Both the position numbers and the translations under genes were made by a program. From positions 1 through 64,000 of the forward strand of contig JAEINO010000001.1 in assembly GCA_016342345.1 (NCBI GenBank): 64,000 nucleotides of DNA, read 5' to 3'. The notes under the pieces are model-generated. The model was not told the origin of the DNA and ran no database searches. It worked only from the letters and a program-made list of their open reading frames with translations. This document shows positions 6,020 to 14,485 of this stretch, piece by piece. This stretch comes from Pseudodesulfovibrio sp. Its GTDB lineage: Bacteria > Desulfobacterota > Desulfovibrionia > Desulfovibrionales > Desulfovibrionaceae. The stretch's first letter is position 1. Every line of letters starts with the position of its first letter.

Positions 6020-6967
6020 ATGGCAAAAATACTGACAGCGGACATAGGCGGGACAAATAGTCGTTTTGCCTTGTTCAATACAGCCAATGGTACACTTGAG
6101 ATGGAGGATTCCATCTGGCTCAAGACTCATGAGGCATCGTCTTTTGCCATGTTGCTCGAACAGTTGTGGGACAGCCGTTTCGCCGCAGTCCCGGGCGTGG
6201 CTGATTCGGTCGTTCTGGCCGTGGCCGGTGCTGTTCTTGGAGGCGTGGAATGCCGCAAACTTCCCAATGTTCCTTGGTCCATAGATATTCGATCAATAGA
6301 TTTCGGGACGAAAAAAGCATGTCTGATCAATGATTTTGCTGCGCAGGCCTATGCCTGTCGTACTCAGGCTGTTGACAAAGCCATAGTCATTCAGGAAGGC
6401 ATCGCCCACGCTCGTGGAGCTCTGGCTGTTGTCGGGGCTGGAACCGGATTGGGGTATTCTGCCCTTGTTCCCACGGAAAAAGGATGGACAGCCATACCAT
6501 CGGAAGGCGGACATATGGCGTTTCCTTTTGTCGGGAAAGAGGAGGCCGAATATGCCGAGTTCAATCGTAATGAAAGTGGTCGTAATTGGGCAGAGGGCGA
6601 TTCTGTTGTCACCGGATTGGGCCTGACGCTCGTGCATAAATTCCTGACCGGTGAAGAACTGACGCCATCAGAAATTTCAGCTAAGATTTCTTCTGATAGT
6701 GAAACTGCGAAGTGGTATGCGCGGTTTTATGGACGCGCATGTCGTAACTGGGCTTTCGCACTCATGGCCTATGGCGGACTCTTTATTGCGGGTGGGATTG
6801 CTGCGAAAAACCAGACGTTTGTCATTGTTCCCGAGTTCATTGAAGAATTTCATAATTCACATATCTATTCCGATTTTTTGCATTCTGTTCCGATCAAACT
6901 CAATACCAATGAGGAAAGCGGTTTGTATGGAGCCGCTTTTTACGGGGTGCAACTGCTGGATGAATAA
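6020..6967 (+). CDS. glk: Glucokinase
   Basis: 315 residues from the ATG at 6020 (AGAGGA at 6005-6010), the usual size of proteobacterial Glk. The phosphate-binding loop 'LTADIGGTNSRFALF' opens the protein. 'CLINDFAAQAYA' carries the likely catalytic aspartate. 'VVGAGTGLGYSALV', 'PSEGGHMAFPF' and 'GGLFIAGGIAAKN' complete the family pattern. It phosphorylates glucose with ATP in the cytoplasm. It overlaps the track start of the next gene by one base and seems co-transcribed with the VTT protein. ROK kinases are excluded by the Glk-type motifs and the lack of a ROK zinc site. Confidence 0.9.
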   Translation: MAKILTADIGGTNSRFALFNTANGTLEMEDSIWLKTHEASSFAMLLEQLWDSRFAAVPGVADSVVLAVAGAVLGGVECRKLPNVPWSIDIRSIDFGTKKACLINDFAAQAYACRTQAVDKAIVIQEGIAHARGALAVVGAGTGLGYSALVPTEKGWTAIPSEGGHMAFPFVGKEEAEYAEFNRNESGRNWAEGDSVVTGLGLTLVHKFLTGEELTPSEISAKISSDSETAKWYARFYGRACRNWAFALMAYGGLFIAGGIAAKNQTFVIVPEFIEEFHNSHIYSDFLHSVPIKLNTNEESGLYGAAFYGVQLLDE

Positions 6968-6981
6968 TGGAGAGCTTAATC

Positions 6982-7677
6982 ATGAATGCGCGTACCGTTA
7001 AGAAATTGATTGTTGTCGGTGTTGTTGCAGGCTTGATTGTCAGTTATTTCATTTTGGATCTTGGGCAATATTTTTCTCTTGAGTACATCAAGGCTTCACA
7101 TGAAGGGTTTCAGGCCTTGTATGCAGAACACGCCACGGCTGTTATCTGCGTATATTTCACAATATATGTGAGCGCTACGGCCTTGGCATTACCTGTGGCG
7201 GCTGTCTTGACGTTGACAGGCGGTGCGTTGTTCGGATTGGTGACCGGTACCATAGTTGTGTCATTTGCGAGCAGCATGGGGGCGGCATTGGCTTTCGTGG
7301 TTGCCAGATATCTATTTCGGGATTTCGTGCAGCAAAGATTTGGCGACAAGTTGCAGAAGATCAACGAGGGTATCGAAAAAGATGGTCCATTTTATTTGTT
7401 TACTCTTCGTCTGATTCCTGTTTTTCCATTTTTCGTCATCAATACAGTTGTCGCACTGACTCCCATGCGAATTTTCACCTATTATTGGGTGTCACAGCTT
7501 GGCATGTTTCCGGCCACTGTCGTTTATGTCAATGCGGGCAATGAGTTGGGACAAATTGAATCTTTTTCAGGGTTGATTTCTCCGAGTCTGATAATTTCAT
7601 TTGCTCTGCTTGGGATATTCCCTCTCGTTATGAAAAAAGGGCTTGGTTGGTATCAGAACAGAAGGGGGCAGGCATGA
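6982..7677 (+). CDS. TVP38/TMEM64 (VTT domain) membrane protein
   Basis: 231 residues from the ATG at 6982 (GGAGAG at 6969-6974). There are about five to six membrane segments. The VTT core is visible as 'ALPVAAVLTLTGGALFGLVTG', 'ASSMGAALAFVVARYLFRD' and 'LFTLRLIPVFPFFVINTVVALTPM'. The family (DedA/TMEM41/TMEM64) is linked to lipid scrambling or transport, but bacterial substrates are mostly unknown. Its stop overlaps the next gene's start (ATGA), which implies tight coupling with the flavoprotein downstream. NCBI family annotation includes bifunctional fusions of these two modules, which supports a shared function. Confidence 0.87.
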   Translation: MNARTVKKLIVVGVVAGLIVSYFILDLGQYFSLEYIKASHEGFQALYAEHATAVICVYFTIYVSATALALPVAAVLTLTGGALFGLVTGTIVVSFASSMGAALAFVVARYLFRDFVQQRFGDKLQKINEGIEKDGPFYLFTLRLIPVFPFFVINTVVALTPMRIFTYYWVSQLGMFPATVVYVNAGNELGQIESFSGLISPSLIISFALLGIFPLVMKKGLGWYQNRRGQA

Positions 7678-9125
7678 CAAAATATGATTATGACATTGGT
7701 GTGATTGGTGGTGGTGCAGCCGGGTTGACCGTTGCAGCCGGAGCATCGCAATTGGGTGTGAAAACGCTGCTTATTGAAAAGGAACCCAGGCTTGGAGGAG
7801 ATTGCCTTCATTTTGGGTGCGTTCCCAGCAAGTCGCTTATCAAGTCCGCTTCCGTCTTTCATCAGATGCGAAATGCTTCCCGTTATGGATTGCCGAATGT
7901 GAAATTATCCCCTGTTGATATGTCTCAGGTCAACGCACACATTCAGTCGGTTATTGATATTATTCAGGTTCATGATTCCGAAGAACGTTTTTGCCGTTTG
8001 GGTGTGAAAGTCGAGTTTGGTCAAGCAGAATTTGTTGACGAACATGTTGTCGAATACGGAGGCAAGCGTGTTTCGGCCAGAACATGGGTTCTTGCGACCG
8101 GTTCAGCTCCGGTATCCTTACCGATTTCCGGTCTGGAAGAAGTCGGATACATGACAAACGAGGATGTTTTCCGTCTTGATGAATTACCATCATCGCTTAT
8201 TGTTGTGGGAGGAGGACCTATCGGTTGTGAAATGGCTCAATCATTTTCTCGACTTGGTACTGATGTGCGAATTCTTCAGCGCAACTGTCAGGTTCTTGCT
8301 GTCGAAGATGAAGACATGGCCGAGGTTGTGCAGAAAAACCTCATGGCCGAAGGGATAAAATTGGATTTGTGCGCCCATACTCAGGAAGTTCGTAAAGGGG
8401 TTGATGGAGTTGAGGTCGTCTACGAGCGTGATGGCGTGGAACATGTCATCAAGGCAGACAAATTGCTTGTGGCGGCAGGACGTGCACCGCGTATAAAAGG
8501 CCTGAAGCTTGAAAATGCGGGTGTGGAATATGACAAGCATGGCGTCAAGACAGACTTGCGGCTCAGAACTAGCCAAAAACATATTTTTGCAGCCGGAGAT
8601 GTGCTGGGAAAACATCAGTTTACACATGCTGCCGGATATGAGGGTGGTATCGTTATTTCCAATGCCGTGTTTCACTTGCCGCGCAAGGTTGATTACAAGT
8701 GGCTGCCCTGGTGCACCTACACCGAGCCTGAGTTGGCAAGTATCGGGATGAACGAGAAAGCCGCAAACAAGGCCGGGCTTGAATATACGGTTTGGGAAGA
8801 GCACTTTGCCGACAATGATCGAGCTCAAGCTGAATGTGAACCGGATGGCAAGATAAAACTTATTCTCGATAAGAAGGAAAAGCCGCTTGGTGTCCAGATT
8901 GTTGGTGTCCATGCAGGTGAATTGGCGGCTGAATGGGTAGTTGCACTGAATTCCAGGATTGGACTTAGCTCTCTTGCTTCTTCCATGCATCCATATCCAA
9001 CCGTGAGCGAAATCAACAAGAGAGTGGCTGGCAAGGTGCTGTCATCAAAGCTTTTTTCAGAGAAGGTTCGTAAGACTCTTGGTTATATTTTTGATTACAA
9101 AGGACGTGCTTGCACTCTTGATTAA
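7674..9125 (+). CDS. Mercuric reductase / dihydrolipoamide dehydrogenase-like flavoprotein
   Basis: 483 residues from the ATG at 7674, overlapping the VTT gene by 4 bases. FAD-binding 'DIGVIGGGAAGLTVAAG' is at residues 6-22. The redox-active disulfide lies in 'GGDCLHFGCVPSKSL'. An NAD(P)-binding 'LIVVGGGPIGCEMAQSFSRLG' follows, and 'HIFAAGDV' closes the FAD site. The C-terminal dimerisation domain has 'VVALNSRIGLSSLASSMHPYPTVSE' with the expected His-Pro. No N-terminal heavy-metal domain and no C-terminal Cys pair are seen, so it is not a classical MerA. It is a class I disulfide reductase of unknown substrate, probably membrane-linked through its VTT partner. Confidence 0.85.
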   Translation: MTKYDYDIGVIGGGAAGLTVAAGASQLGVKTLLIEKEPRLGGDCLHFGCVPSKSLIKSASVFHQMRNASRYGLPNVKLSPVDMSQVNAHIQSVIDIIQVHDSEERFCRLGVKVEFGQAEFVDEHVVEYGGKRVSARTWVLATGSAPVSLPISGLEEVGYMTNEDVFRLDELPSSLIVVGGGPIGCEMAQSFSRLGTDVRILQRNCQVLAVEDEDMAEVVQKNLMAEGIKLDLCAHTQEVRKGVDGVEVVYERDGVEHVIKADKLLVAAGRAPRIKGLKLENAGVEYDKHGVKTDLRLRTSQKHIFAAGDVLGKHQFTHAAGYEGGIVISNAVFHLPRKVDYKWLPWCTYTEPELASIGMNEKAANKAGLEYTVWEEHFADNDRAQAECEPDGKIKLILDKKEKPLGVQIVGVHAGELAAEWVVALNSRIGLSSLASSMHPYPTVSEINKRVAGKVLSSKLFSEKVRKTLGYIFDYKGRACTLD

Positions 9126-9194: not shown

Positions 9195-9680
9195 ATGGGT
9201 GAAAAAGATCGATATAAGAAAATGTTTCCTGTGTCCTGGGAACAATTGCATCGTGATTGCCGGGCACTTTCCTGGCGTCTGATGGAAAAAGGACCATGGA
9301 AAGGCATTCTTGCCATTACGCGTGGTGGTTTGGTTCCTGCGGCTATTATTGCCCGCGAGTTAGACATTCATCTTATCGACACCATCTGTCTGTCGTCCTA
9401 CACGTGGAAAGAACAGGGTGAAGCCAGTATCCTCAAGCAGGTTAAACATGATGGTGAGGGATGGCTTCTGATTGATGATTTGGTGGATACCGGCAAAACG
9501 GCAAAAATAGTTCGTGACATGGTGCCAAAAGCTCATTTTGCAACGGTATATGCCAAACCCGAAGGGCGCACCATGGTCGAGACATTTATCACTGAAGTAA
9601 GCCAAGATACTTGGATATTATTTCCATGGGATGCTGGTACACAGTTTGTTGTACCGATTGCCCATGTTTCCGAAGAATAA
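9195..9680 (+). CDS. gpt: Xanthine-guanine phosphoribosyltransferase
   Basis: 161 residues. It closely follows E. coli Gpt: '[22 protein letters not shown]', the PRPP-binding '[19 protein letters not shown]', '[15 protein letters not shown]' and '[11 protein letters not shown]'. It converts guanine, xanthine and (less well) hypoxanthine to their nucleotides with PRPP. GAGGAG at 9178-9183 precedes the ATG. It lies just upstream of a nucleoside-type ABC importer and a dGTPase, so it probably salvages imported purine bases. Confidence 0.93.
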
Positions 9681-9802
9681 AGAATAAAAAACATGTTCAT
9701 ATATTTCTGTCTATTAGAGACTGTCGCGTAGTGAAGGGCCTTGCCCTGAATCGCATGCTGGGATATTGGAAATTAATAAAAATCGCTAACGGAGAGGTCC
9801 CC

Positions 9803-10945
9803 ATGAAAAAGCTGTTGAAACTGTTTACTGTATCGGCTGCCTGCATGGCACTGATGTTTTCTCTTTATGCCTGTGGCGAAGCCCCTCAGGAAAAAAAAGC
9901 GGAAGAGCCTGCCAAAATTGATGAGGCCGTGGCACCCACGGAAGAAGCCAAGACTGTCAAAGCCGGCTTTGTCTATGTTTCCCCAGTTGGTGACGCTGGA
10001 TATTCCTATGCTCATGATCTGGGACGCAAGACTGTTGATGGCCTGGACTTTGTCACCTCTGCCTTTGTCGAATCTGTGCCTGAAGGTGCTGATTCGGAAC
10101 GCGTTATTCGTAACATGGCCCGTAAAGGTTTTGATATCATCTTCACTACCAGCTTCGGCTACATGGACCCGACTATCAAGGTTGCCAAGGAATTTCCCGA
10201 TACCAAATTCATGCATTGCTCCGGTTTTAAAAAGGCCGAGAATGTAAATAATTACTTTGGTCGTATTTATCAATCCCGTTATTTGACCGGTTTGGTTGCC
10301 GGTGCCATGACCAAGAGCAACAAGCTGGGTTATGTGGCAGCTTTCCCGATTCCTGAAGTCATTCGCGGTATCAACGCCTTTGCTGTTGGTGTGCGTCAGA
10401 TGAACCCGGATGCTGAAGTCCGTGTTGTCTGGACCAAGACCTGGTATGATCCTGCTTTGGAAAAAGATGCAGCCAAGAGCCTGCTGGATGCCGGTTGCGA
10501 TGTTATCGCCCAGCATCAGGATTCACCCGCTCCGCAAGAAGCTGCCCAGGAAGCTGGTGCCTATTGCATCGGTTACAATTCCGACATGTCTTCCTTTGCT
10601 CCCAAGGCTCACCTGACTTCCGCCATCTGGAACTGGGGCCCCATGTACACCAAGACCGTTGAAGCTGTTCGTGACGGCTCCTGGGAAGGTAATCAGTCCC
10701 TGTGGTGGTCCATGCAGGACGGTGTTGTCGATATTGCCCCCATGGGTCCGATGGTCCCTGAGGACGTCAAGAATGCCGTTATGGCCAAGAGAGACGAACT
10801 CAGAAATGGTAATGACATCTGTTTCGTCGGTCCGATCAAGGATCAGAATGGCGAAATCAAGATTGCCGCTGGTGAAAAAGCGACCGATGAGCAATTGCAT
10901 GACATGATGTGGTTTGTTGAAGGCGTTGTTGGCACCGTCAACTAG
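9803..10945 (+). CDS. BMP-family substrate-binding lipoprotein of a nucleoside ABC importer
   Basis: 380 residues from the ATG at 9803, preceded by GGAGAGG; the longer track ORF starts inside untranslated leader. The lipobox 'SLYAC' puts the lipidated cysteine at residue 24, then a charged linker. The BMP/PnrA fold begins near residue 52 with 'AGFVYVSPVGDAGYSYAHDLGRK' and continues with 'GFDIIFTTSFGYMDP', 'DTKFMHCSG' and 'YFGRIYQSRYLTGLVAGAM'. BMP proteins bind nucleosides at the outer face of the inner membrane. It heads a four-gene transport operon with two permeases and an ATPase. Confidence 0.9.
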   Translation: MKKLLKLFTVSAACMALMFSLYACGEAPQEKKAEEPAKIDEAVAPTEEAKTVKAGFVYVSPVGDAGYSYAHDLGRKTVDGLDFVTSAFVESVPEGADSERVIRNMARKGFDIIFTTSFGYMDPTIKVAKEFPDTKFMHCSGFKKAENVNNYFGRIYQSRYLTGLVAGAMTKSNKLGYVAAFPIPEVIRGINAFAVGVRQMNPDAEVRVVWTKTWYDPALEKDAAKSLLDAGCDVIAQHQDSPAPQEAAQEAGAYCIGYNSDMSSFAPKAHLTSAIWNWGPMYTKTVEAVRDGSWEGNQSLWWSMQDGVVDIAPMGPMVPEDVKNAVMAKRDELRNGNDICFVGPIKDQNGEIKIAAGEKATDEQLHDMMWFVEGVVGTVN

Positions 10946-10956
10946 ATGCCTGGCAT

Positions 10957-12018
10957 ATGCCTTTAACAATTATAAAAAGAGATGAACCCTGGAAGTGGGG
11001 CGCCCTGGTTATTTTCCTGGGCGCCCTGCTCTTTTGCCTTGCTGTCAGTGCTGCACTTCTGGCAGGTCAGGGAAAAGATGCCTTGCATGGTCTCTACGTC
11101 CTTTGGCTTGGCAGCTTTGGCAATTTGTGGGCTTTGGAAGGCGCGTTACTGAAGGCCATCCCCTTATTCCTCTGTTCTCTTGGTGTGGCTGTTGCCTTTC
11201 GTATGCAGATATGGAACATCGGAGCTGAAGGGCAATTCGCTTTAGGTGCTATCGGTGCCACATGGATGTCTCTGCTTTTTCCAGATCTTCCTCGTCTTAT
11301 CTTGTTGCCGCTCATGTTTATGATGGCATTTCTTCTTGGTGGTATTTGGGCTTTCATTCCCGCTTTTCTCAAGCTGAAGTTGCGGGTTAATGAAATCATA
11401 TCCACTCTGATGCTCAATTATATTGCAATACTTCTGCTTGATTTTCTTGTTTTCGGTGTTTGGAAGGACCCGGCGAGTTTCGGTTTTCCAATGACTCCGG
11501 AATTCACTCAAGGTGCAATTATTCCAACCATCGGGGACAGCCGGGTTCATTGGGGACTCCTGTTTTGCCTGATAGTTGGTGTCGGTTTGTGGGCGTTCAT
11601 GCGTTTTACTCGCCTTGGATTCGAGTTGCAGGCCAGTGGAGAAGGGGCACGGGTGGCGAAGTATGCAAAGATTCGCTACGGCATGCTCGTCATGTTCGTC
11701 ATGTTTCTTTCTGGAGGATTGGCTGGTTGGGCCGGGTGTGTTGAGACCTCAGCGATCCTGAATCGGCTTCAACCAAGTCTGATGGTTGGCTATGGCTATA
11801 CAGCCATTGTTGTGGCCTGGCTGGCTCGTCTAGAGCCTCTTAATATAGCCTTTGCATCGTTCCTGTTGGCTGCATTGCGTGTTGGTGTCGAAAACATGCA
11901 GCTTGAATTGCAGATTCCTGCGGCATTCGGTGTGATCATGGAAGGAATAATTCTCCTTACGGTTCTGGCTGGACAGTTCTTCCTTTTGTATAAACTTGAA
12001 CGAAAGCACAGTTCTTAG
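10957..12018 (+). CDS. Nucleoside-type ABC transporter permease (first)
   Basis: 353 residues with about eight to nine hydrophobic segments. The BPD_transp_2 pattern shows in 'AFRMQIWNIGAEGQFALGAIGA' and 'LRVNEIISTLMLNYIA', typical of the YufP/NupP-like permease that accompanies BMP proteins. It starts 11 bases after the binding-protein gene, with no clear Shine-Dalgarno, which suggests translational coupling. It forms a heterodimer in the inner membrane with the next permease. Confidence 0.9.
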   Translation: MPLTIIKRDEPWKWGALVIFLGALLFCLAVSAALLAGQGKDALHGLYVLWLGSFGNLWALEGALLKAIPLFLCSLGVAVAFRMQIWNIGAEGQFALGAIGATWMSLLFPDLPRLILLPLMFMMAFLLGGIWAFIPAFLKLKLRVNEIISTLMLNYIAILLLDFLVFGVWKDPASFGFPMTPEFTQGAIIPTIGDSRVHWGLLFCLIVGVGLWAFMRFTRLGFELQASGEGARVAKYAKIRYGMLVMFVMFLSGGLAGWAGCVETSAILNRLQPSLMVGYGYTAIVVAWLARLEPLNIAFASFLLAALRVGVENMQLELQIPAAFGVIMEGIILLTVLAGQFFLLYKLERKHSS

Positions 12019-12032
12019 GTGGATTTACGGCT

Positions 12033-12950
12033 ATGTGGGAATTCCTGATACCGCTTTTCGCAGCTACGGTGCAGTCCGGGACTCCGCTCATATATGCTAC
12101 TCTTGGTGAGATCATGACAGAGAGAGGCGGGGTGTTGAACCTCGGCGTCGAGGGCATCATGAGCATTTCTGCCTTGGTCGCTTTCTGGATAAGCTTTACC
12201 ACAGGTTCCCCTTGGTTGGGTTTTCTGGGTGCCGGATTGGCAGGAATGGTGTTTGCCTCCCTGCATGCTTTTGTTTGTATTTCATGTCTTGGAAATCAGG
12301 TTGTATCCGGTCTGGCCTTGACCATTTTTGGTGTCGGTTTGACTCATTACCTCGGTGTTCCCTATGTCGGCTTGCATGCCCCTGGCTTCACCCCTTTTGA
12401 TTTTCCTTTGCTGTCGCAGATTCCAGTTCTTGGTGATGTTTTTTTCAAGCATGACATGCTGGTATATTTGTCATTTGTTGTTCCTTTCCTTTTCTGGTTC
12501 TTTTTCAAGCGCACCAGCCTCGGTCTGCACGTTGTTGCCACTGGAGAAATGCCAGCCGCCGCCGCCGCAGCAGGTCTCAGGCCAATTGCTCTTCGTTATT
12601 TTGCAGTTGTTTCAGGTGGATTTCTGATCGGACTTGGCGGAGCTTACCTTTCGTTGGCTTACACGCATCTATGGACCAACGGGTTATCCGGAGGTCGTGG
12701 CTGGATCGCCGTGGCCCTGGTTATTTTTGCGTTTTGGCGTCCAGGACGAGCTGTAGCCGGGGCATACCTCTTTGGTGGCGTTATGGCTTTTCAACTTCGA
12801 CTTCAGGCCATGGGAACTCATTTGCCATCTTCACTTCTGCTCATGTTACCATATATACTTACTATTCTGGTTCTTATCCTGTCTGCATGTTTCGGTCGTC
12901 GTATTGAAGCACCAGCCGCTCTTGGTACAAATATCGAGCCGGAGGGATGA
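12033..12950 (+). CDS. Nucleoside-type ABC transporter permease (second)
   Basis: 305 residues, about eight membrane segments. Family motifs are 'TPLIYATLGEIMTERGGVLNLGVEGIM', 'GNQVVSGLALTIFGVGLT' and 'GGRGWIAVALVIFAFWRP', as in YufQ/NupQ-like permeases. A run of alanines (PAAAAAAGLRP) sits in a cytoplasmic loop. AGGTGG lies 10 bases before the ATG. Its stop overlaps the start of the ATPase gene by 4 bases. Confidence 0.9.
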   Translation: MWEFLIPLFAATVQSGTPLIYATLGEIMTERGGVLNLGVEGIMSISALVAFWISFTTGSPWLGFLGAGLAGMVFASLHAFVCISCLGNQVVSGLALTIFGVGLTHYLGVPYVGLHAPGFTPFDFPLLSQIPVLGDVFFKHDMLVYLSFVVPFLFWFFFKRTSLGLHVVATGEMPAAAAAAGLRPIALRYFAVVSGGFLIGLGGAYLSLAYTHLWTNGLSGGRGWIAVALVIFAFWRPGRAVAGAYLFGGVMAFQLRLQAMGTHLPSSLLLMLPYILTILVLILSACFGRRIEAPAALGTNIEPEG

Positions 12951-14485
12951 TGTCTGAATTGATGTTCGTTCGTCCTGTCTCTGTGCGGTCTTTGCCGGAA
13001 GGTACGCAGCCTGTGGTCAGCTTGAAGGGTGTAACCAAGCGATTTGGCAAGGTCCTTGCCAACGAATCCATAACCATGGATGTCTATCCGGGTAGAATCA
13101 AGGCTCTGCTTGGTGAAAACGGTGCAGGCAAGTCCACGATGATGAGTATGTTGGCTGGTCGTTATTGTCCGGACGAGGGTCATATCGAAGTGGACGGCAA
13201 ACCCGTACGGTTTACTTCATCAAAGGATGCCATTGCCGCTGGCATAGGCATGGTCTATCAGCATTTCATGTTGGTAGATTGCATGACTGTGGCCGAGAAT
13301 GTCCTTTTGGGACAGGAGGGTACCTTCTTTATTAATCCTAGGGAAATGAAGAAACGTGTCGGAGAACTGGCAGAGGCCTATGGACTCGACATTGATCCCG
13401 CAGCGCGCATATCTGATCTTTCGATGGGTGAACGGCAACTGGTCGAAATTTTGAAGCTTCTTTATCGCGAAAGTCGTATTCTCATTTTTGATGAACCGAC
13501 CGCAGTTTTGACGCCCGAGGAGACCAATAAGCTTTTTGAAGCATTGTGGCGCATGACTGAGCAGGGTAAGTCCATTATCTTCATCAGCCACAAGCTGGAA
13601 GAGGTCATTGCCTTGGCTGACGAGATCGCCATCCTGAGGCGTGGTCGTCTTGAAGGTGAGCTTGATCCCAGTGCCATAACGTCAAAATCAGAATTGGCTT
13701 CGCGCATGGTTGGAAAGGAAGTGATTCTTGAGGTTAATCGAAAGACTGTAGAGATCAGCGAGCCTGTTCTTGAAATCAGGCATCTTACGGGCTTGGGCTT
13801 GACTGATATTAACTTTAGGGTGCGCAAGGGCGAAATAGTTGCGGTTGTTGGTGTAGCTGGTAATGGCCAGAAAGCTTTGGTTGAGGCCGTTACAGGTTTG
13901 TGCAAACCTCCAGCTAATACCGTTTTTATCATGCAGCAGCCATGGCGAAAGTTTTTTGCAGAATCCACCTGGAATCGATCCATGTGTTATATTCCGGAGG
14001 ACAGGCTTGGGTTGGCAACTCTGCGTAACCAGAACATGGTGGACAACCTGCTCCTGACAACTCGAAAGGGTTTTTCTAATGGACCATGGCTGAACAAGAA
14101 ACGTGCAGAAAAGGATACCCTGAAACTTATCAAGAAATTTGATATTCGCCCGGGTAAGATTCACGCGCTGGCTTGGCAACTTTCGGGCGGCAATTTGCAA
14201 AAAGCTGTTCTGGCCCGTGAACTGTATAGGGAGCCGCGTTTTATTGTGGCTGAACAGCCCACTCAGGGACTTGATGTTTCAGCTACCGAGGAGGTTTGGA
14301 ACCGGCTGTTGGATGCTCGTGACATTTCGGGCATATTGCTTGTCACAGGCGACTTGAACGAGGCGTTGCAATTGGCTGACTATATTGCCGTCATGTATCG
14401 TGGCCGTATTCTTGGTATGCTGCCGACGTCCGAAGAAGCAACTTCCGGTAAGATAGGTCCGCTCATGGCCGGTGTCACGGACTAG
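12947..14485 (+). CDS. Nucleoside-type ABC transporter ATPase (two nucleotide-binding domains)
   Basis: 512 residues with two ABC modules. The first (about 25-250) has Walker A 'GENGAGKST', signature 'LSMGERQLVEILK' and Walker B 'ILIFDEPTAVLTP'. The second (about 260-500) has the relaxed Walker A 'GVAGNGQKAL' usual for this family, 'LSGGNLQKAVLARE' and 'FIVAEQPTQGLDV'. This is the RbsA/MglA/YufO-type ATPase. Operon order here is binding protein, permease, permease, ATPase; in many BMP systems the ATPase comes second. Confidence 0.92.
   Translation: MMSELMFVRPVSVRSLPEGTQPVVSLKGVTKRFGKVLANESITMDVYPGRIKALLGENGAGKSTMMSMLAGRYCPDEGHIEVDGKPVRFTSSKDAIAAGIGMVYQHFMLVDCMTVAENVLLGQEGTFFINPREMKKRVGELAEAYGLDIDPAARISDLSMGERQLVEILKLLYRESRILIFDEPTAVLTPEETNKLFEALWRMTEQGKSIIFISHKLEEVIALADEIAILRRGRLEGELDPSAITSKSELASRMVGKEVILEVNRKTVEISEPVLEIRHLTGLGLTDINFRVRKGEIVAVVGVAGNGQKALVEAVTGLCKPPANTVFIMQQPWRKFFAESTWNRSMCYIPEDRLGLATLRNQNMVDNLLLTTRKGFSNGPWLNKKRAEKDTLKLIKKFDIRPGKIHALAWQLSGGNLQKAVLARELYREPRFIVAEQPTQGLDVSATEEVWNRLLDARDISGILLVTGDLNEALQLADYIAVMYRGRILGMLPTSEEATSGKIGPLMAGVTD

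Follow-up and report, generated by a model that had tools for sequence, protein, structure and literature searches.

A VTT membrane protein paired with a MerA-like flavoenzyme in Pseudodesulfovibrio, and its association with ArsS and radical-SAM/ArsM-like genes

Membrane proteins of the VTT type (TVP38/TMEM64, COG0398) are widespread and related to the eukaryotic scramblases TMEM41B and TMEM64. COG0398 proteins have been put forward as scramblases themselves, and the same study noted a fusion of a COG0398 protein with a flavoenzyme and connected COG0398 with aerobic metabolism (mBio 2023; PMC10127716). The fused form is also found on plasmids, where RefSeq names it bifunctional TVP38/TMEM64 family protein/FAD-dependent oxidoreductase. 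Both sources bear out an earlier statement, made in a preliminary description of the locus studied here, that the two modules occur as a single protein in some bacteria. We analysed a window of 64,000 nucleotides from Pseudodesulfovibrio sp. (contig JAEINO010000001.1), in which the two modules are encoded by separate, overlapping genes (Table 1). The phylum of this organism is rich in anaerobes, and the present case is an extensive occurrence of the VTT-flavoenzyme module within it. A flavoenzyme that is repeatedly tied to one group of COG0398 proteins and to a pathway-specific radical enzyme provides a concrete handle on both.

Table 1. Features of the VTT-flavoenzyme locus (window positions) and of related fusion genes at other loci
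Feature	Position	Strand	Remark
Glucokinase-like gene, first in probable operon	6021..6967	+	ORF call
GGAG, putative Shine-Dalgarno-like element 5' of the VTT start at 6982	6969..6972	+	read directly
VTT (TVP38/TMEM64, COG0398-type) membrane protein gene	6982..7677	+	231 aa; PF09335 match
VTT domain with R114, R148, P154 and N159 invariant among partner VTTs	7201..7542	+	numbering from the ATG at 6967
ATGA common to VTT stop and flavoenzyme start	7674..7677	+	read from sequence
MerA/LPD-superfamily flavoenzyme gene	7674..9125	+	483 aa
Redox disulfide CLHFGC (Cys44, Cys49)	7803..7820	+	both Cys kept in 139/140 relatives
Tyr441 (HPYPTVSE), in place of disulfide-reductase catalytic His	8994..8996	+	PDB alignments
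C-terminal basic amphipathic tail, predicted membrane-binding helix	9039..9122	+	hydrophobic moment, charge
Cys480 in tail motif KGRAC	9111..9113	+	conserved in clade A
Scanned radical-SAM/SPASM + ArsM-like + MbdU-like fusions	L095:1197-4382, L097:5840-9163, L183:2-2830, L191:6027-8900		

The ATGA overlap between the VTT and flavoenzyme genes that had been reported for this locus is confirmed by reading of the sequence at 7674-7677, and AGAAGGGGG precedes the ATG of the flavoenzyme gene (7674). The claim of translational coupling stands only in part: strict coupling is plausible in the window, whereas the exact overlap is not general among relatives, and spacings range from -14 to +211 bases across the loci in which the VTT gene lies directly upstream of the flavoenzyme gene. 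An in-frame ATG at 6967 is a second possible start of the VTT gene. The glucokinase-like ORF ends at 6967, only 14 bases ahead of the VTT start, and therefore the three genes probably form a single operon. The same gene order recurs in Desulfogranum mediterraneum (L012) and in most genomes of the genus. The glucokinase-like ortholog at locus L082 reaches 171.6 bits against glucokinase models, below their cut-offs (cut-off 333). A promoter and terminator pattern scan of the window locus returned matches at chance level. Further downstream (window 9195-14485) lie genes that we read as coding for a phosphoribosyltransferase and, after it, a BMP-type substrate-binding protein, two permeases and an ABC ATPase, probably a nucleoside uptake operon, which is kept across the genus.

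The flavoenzyme is covered over its whole length by the domains Pyr_redox_2 (202.4 bits) and Pyr_redox_dim (85.2 bits). Its best curated model, NF004991, matches full-length with 479.6 bits, below the cut-off of 620, and the scores against lipoamide dehydrogenase (LPD; TIGR01350, 366 bits, cut-off 408.8), MerA (TIGR02053, 349.2 bits, cut-off 454) and glutathione reductase are likewise below cut-off. In the flavoenzyme tree, the window's clade A and a clade B separate with full support. No N-terminal metal-binding domain was found in the window enzyme, which begins at its FAD domain, and a vicinal CC is absent from the last 40 residues in 140 of 140 relatives; the two MerA controls from plasmids, by contrast, have SCC(A) at their ends. 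The enzyme was thus rightly described before as devoid of the metal-binding ends of MerA. Its designation as a disulfide reductase fared less well. Tyr441 aligns with the catalytic His of LPD and with a Tyr of MerA, and Tyr is present in 139/139 relatives that keep the motif; the His/Tyr contrast is based on PDB alignments. Because a Tyr stands where the catalytic His belongs, as in MerA, the label appears doubtful. The second active-site Tyr of MerA, which we take to lie in the NQKY region of 5x1y, was not found in the flavoenzyme, and the window has HDSEERF at that region. Of the 90 clade A members, 64 share the QR coenzyme motif of the MerA controls, while clade B mostly has E; for the window enzyme this suggests NADPH as coenzyme. 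A structure model of a natural fusion (L178; pLDDT 92.7, pTM 0.77) has an enzyme domain that matches lipoamide dehydrogenase and MerA structures with a TM of about 0.9.

The C-terminal tail of the flavoenzyme is roughly 20-30 residues long, and its median net charge is about +3 to +4. Its median hydrophobic moment is 0.48 in clade A and 0.49 in clade B, compared with 0.28 and 0.21 in control stretches, and the tail is predicted to bind the membrane. The motif G[RSK][AG]C is found in 82 of 90 clade A tails; of the 50 clade B proteins, 7 have a Cys anywhere in their last 30 residues. A selenocysteine in the tail was considered for two relatives with an in-frame TGA and rejected; these are ordinary stops, one of which follows GRAC while the sister of the other has TAA.

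The partner protein matches PF09335 (VTT_dom) with 82.9 bits, above the gathering cut-off of 33.9, and scores 17.2 bits against the undecaprenyl phosphate transporter UptA (NF052604), below the cut-off of 250. The AlphaFold model of the window VTT is all-helical (pLDDT 91.8), and a fold search of the PDB with this model returned no significant match.

Among 36 genomes of the genus, 20 encode a flavoenzyme ortholog (at least 62% identity) and 21 a VTT ortholog (at least 49%), and the two genes are adjacent in 18. In two genomes (G003 and G011) the flavoenzyme gene stays at the locus while the VTT gene sits elsewhere, and in another (G010) the VTT gene is kept and the flavoenzyme gene is gone. 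Adjacency inside the genus is weak evidence of joint function, because the whole neighbourhood is syntenic across the genus. Across the phylum, the flavoenzyme is present at E <= 1e-80 in 146 of 395 genomes. We inspected 122 flavoenzyme loci, that is 120 fetched and two more, with one place counted twice (L012 and L125). A VTT is fused to the flavoenzyme in 13 of these, adjacent in 54 and within 3.5 kb in 16. Hence 83/122 loci have a VTT partner, where about 0.8%, or about one locus, is expected by chance on a generous estimate; the two genes co-occur well beyond chance. In the other 39 loci no VTT was seen in the fetched stretch, eight of these stretches being ended by contig ends.

Fusions occur only among clade B flavoenzymes, and the partner VTTs do not form one clade. 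The group of the window VTT (59 members, support 1.0; VTT tree supports are from FastTree) includes partners of clade A and eight fused clade B partners; other fusions fall in other VTT groups, and at least two well-separated groups contain fusions. This spread of partners and fusions over several VTT groups indicates that pairing or partner exchange took place more than once, as judged from the trees, and repeated pairing is a stronger sign of joint function than one inherited arrangement. VTT and flavoenzyme thus appear well supported as one functional module. The earlier description of a membrane-associated redox pair is in line with this pairing, and the conserved basic amphipathic tail adds to it.

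Hints at a pathway come from the gene neighbourhoods. Families confirmed with NCBIfam and Pfam as neighbours are ArsS (TIGR04167), the TIGR04282 glycosyltransferase, the TIGR04169 peroxidase-like protein, DUF547 and DUF3047, as well as 6-phosphogluconate dehydrogenase, glucose-6-phosphate dehydrogenase, transaldolase and transketolase. Of the 72 clade A loci, 25 contain pentose-phosphate or glucokinase genes, as do 7 of the 49 loci of clade B. ArsS, a radical enzyme forming a C-As bond according to work cited in PMC12159101, is present in 121/395 genomes and occurs together with the flavoenzyme in 84, compared with 44.7 expected (Fisher 1.5e-18; odds ratio 7.8). Kinship was allowed for through genus and family counts only, and the association persists in both, with 75 genera (1.6e-17) and 50 families (5e-8) in common. 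In the genus, ArsS is found in 12 of 20 flavoenzyme genomes and in 0 of 16 others, eight of the 20 being without it. By a hand count from match coordinates, the distance to the flavoenzyme is at most 10 kb for ArsS in 29/84 genomes and for the glucose-6-phosphate dehydrogenase gene zwf in 18/90. The association of zwf with the flavoenzyme has an odds ratio of 7.1 and is thus of similar strength to that of ArsS, and part of the ArsS signal may therefore reflect lineage or lifestyle; when stratified, both associations persist (odds ratios 5.8 and 5.4 for the two).

The window genome has an ArsS of its own (395.8 bits, above cut-off; G000:C56:60080-60979), unlinked to the pair on another contig, next to BASS-family-like transporter and ECF-transporter-like genes. 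By reading, this ArsS gene (L252:8042-8989) is followed by a BASS-family-like transporter gene and a DUF4198-like gene, and ArsS loci of the genus run on with FadL-like and ECF-transporter-like genes. Neither an ars gene nor a radical-SAM gene is among the neighbours of the window pair. A search of the window genome for ordinary ArsM (NF008823) gave no match at E <= 1e-30, and arsenic itself is therefore only a candidate for the element handled there. The arsenosugar-type ArsM model NF038099 gave zero matches across the 395 genomes and equally none in control genomes.

A second type of radical enzyme accompanies the flavoenzyme. Eight loci have large radical-SAM/SPASM neighbour proteins, all of one cluster. 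In the four that were scanned (Table 1), the radical-SAM/SPASM part is joined to an ArsM-like methyltransferase domain (203-228 bits against a cut-off of 263) and to an MbdU-like metal-binding part; cluster mates are found in L107, L134, L139 and L207. We searched whole genomes in a sample of 40 with and 40 without the flavoenzyme, using a query from a locus adjoining the flavoenzyme, and found the radical-SAM/ArsM-like fusion in 12/40 flavoenzyme genomes and 1/40 others. Within the flavoenzyme genomes it is present in 12 of 17 without ArsS and in 0 of 23 with ArsS (P 1.1e-6), and either ArsS or the fusion is found in 35/40 flavoenzyme genomes compared with 9/40 others (P 5e-9). This complementarity is the strongest hint to the pathway, and a link to radical-SAM chemistry of the ArsS/ArsM type has moderate support from such associations.

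Related gene sets occur in other phyla and on plasmids. A Pseudanabaena plasmid has VTT, flavoenzyme, arsM, VTT and arsS in one gene run; the second VTT gene of the cyanobacterial cluster, between arsM and arsS, lies at L278:9411-10169. In Burkholderia glumae, a VTT-flavoenzyme fusion is encoded near TIGR04282/TIGR04283 arsenosugar glycosyltransferase genes. In an E. coli IncC plasmid and in Alteromonadales, the fusion is accompanied by an ABC transporter and a CDP-alcohol phosphatidyltransferase. The E. coli IncC plasmid pYDC637 (L275) is conjugative, with insertion-sequence genes on one side of the fused cluster. The neighbours of the plasmid fusion are homologous to E. coli K-12 YnjB (64%), YnjC (46%), YnjD (55%) and YnjF (48-55%), whose genes adjoin ydjX and ydjZ in K-12 (L282, 1833401-1841403).

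We tentatively favour the reading that the pair is an NADPH reductase of the MerA type, bound to the membrane, which serves an organometalloid pathway with radical-SAM enzymes, arsenosugar-like in kind. The two genes would encode one membrane-bound module, probably as a physical complex, in which the VTT partner, together with the flavoenzyme's own basic amphipathic tail, holds the flavoenzyme on the inner face of the membrane. NAD(P)H, with NADPH more likely in the window's clade, would reduce FAD, and electrons would pass via the Cys44-Cys49 pair to a thiol-reactive substrate, Tyr441 standing in for the His of the active site. The VTT protein may handle or move an amphipathic or lipid-linked substrate. 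The pathway would most likely be a radical-SAM route to organometalloids akin to arsenosugars or arsenolipids, in which the flavoenzyme keeps the metalloid reduced and reactive (trivalent) for ArsS-like or ArsM-like steps. The substrate, which the preliminary description had left as unknown, is still a matter of inference; by association, the gene context narrows it to radical-SAM chemistry of the ArsS/ArsM type and NADPH supply. It is conceivable, if rather unlikely, that the pair is the membrane reductase still missing from the biosynthesis of organoarsenicals (arsenosugar/arsenolipid-type) in bacteria, where it would work with ArsS or alternatively with the giant radical-SAM/ArsM-like fusion, and that electrons or the metalloid travel from the C-terminal Cys behind the membrane helix to a substrate on the lipid side that the VTT protein handles.

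Other functions have to be weighed against this organometalloid reductase. Two redox Cys, a fold and sequence near lipoamide dehydrogenase, and the NADPH-type motif in most of clade A would suit a disulfide reductase that is linked to the membrane and acts on a small thiol, similar to glutathione or lipoamide reductase. The exchange of the catalytic His in all relatives with the motif and the scores under the lipoamide dehydrogenase and glutathione reductase cut-offs make such an enzyme unlikely. We consider a true Hg(II) reductase, with the VTT protein replacing the Mer transporters, more improbable still, even though the Tyr and the coenzyme motif are MerA-like, Synechocystis Slr1849 is named MerA and induced by Hg (PMC6741143), and a cyanobacterial relative belongs to the NF004991 subfamily with 833 bits. 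The vicinal C-terminal Cys pair, the N-terminal metal domain and the second Tyr are missing, the score is 349 against a MerA cut-off of 454 bits, and no mer gene was recognised beside the flavoenzyme in the window.

The flavoenzyme could also protect membranes as a membrane-bound NAD(P)H:quinone or lipid-redox enzyme, with the VTT protein as scramblase and an indirect link to ArsS; this would be in line with the amphipathic tail, with the CDP-alcohol phosphatidyltransferase and sterol-desaturase-type genes that adjoin fused forms, and with the scramblase proposal for COG0398 (PMC10127716). We see little likelihood in it, since it leaves both the mutual exclusivity of ArsS and the radical-SAM/ArsM fusion and the need for both redox Cys unexplained. 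The two genes could also be neighbours through shared regulation or genome history, their products not working together. Synteny of the whole locus in the genus and the genomes in which the genes are apart (G003, G011) or the VTT gene stands alone (G010) fit with this; that upstream, downstream and fused arrangements recur in many families, and that VTTs from several subclades were paired, renders mere neighbourhood highly unlikely.

While the fusion was known, new here are the Tyr in place of His, the tail, the link to ArsS or the radical-SAM/ArsM-like fusion, the clustering with pentose-phosphate genes and the likeness of the gene set to the ydj-ynj region; our literature search found no paper that joins arsenosugar genes to TVP38 proteins. 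Compared with its closest known counterpart, the bifunctional RefSeq protein, the window pair has both domains, arranged in the same order. The window's flavoenzyme belongs to a sister clade of the fused ones, and eight fused VTTs fall into one group with the VTT of the window. The window pair differs in being two genes, in its extra tail Cys and in a coenzyme motif that is mostly QR; also, it adjoins glk, whereas the fused plasmid members adjoin an ABC transporter and a phosphatidyltransferase. The FAD-containing oxidoreductases of NF004991 (PRK06370.1-3) provide the best model, but the window enzyme is a sister group only (479.6 < 620), compared with 833 bits for the cyanobacterial relative. 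With MerA (TIGR02053) the window enzyme shares the fold, the CxxxxC pair, Tyr for His and a QR-type coenzyme motif, but it has neither the C-terminal CC nor the NmerA domain nor the second active-site Tyr, and scores below cut-off. With dihydrolipoamide dehydrogenase (TIGR01350) it shares the fold, the CxxxxC pair and 366 bits, but the catalytic His is missing and the cut-off of 408.8 is not reached. Genes that are often called mercuric reductase may act on another substrate. The E. coli region ydjX-ydjY-ydjZ-ynjABCD-ynjE / ynjF differs in that it is devoid of a MerA-like enzyme and has the 4Fe-4S protein YdjY between its two VTTs. However, like the fusion loci, it combines VTT proteins with an AhpD-like protein, an ABC transporter and a CDP-alcohol phosphatidyltransferase, the latter two being homologues of genes that surround the fusions on plasmids, and this uncharacterised ydjXYZ-ynjABCD-ynjF region is thereby linked to a testable pathway.
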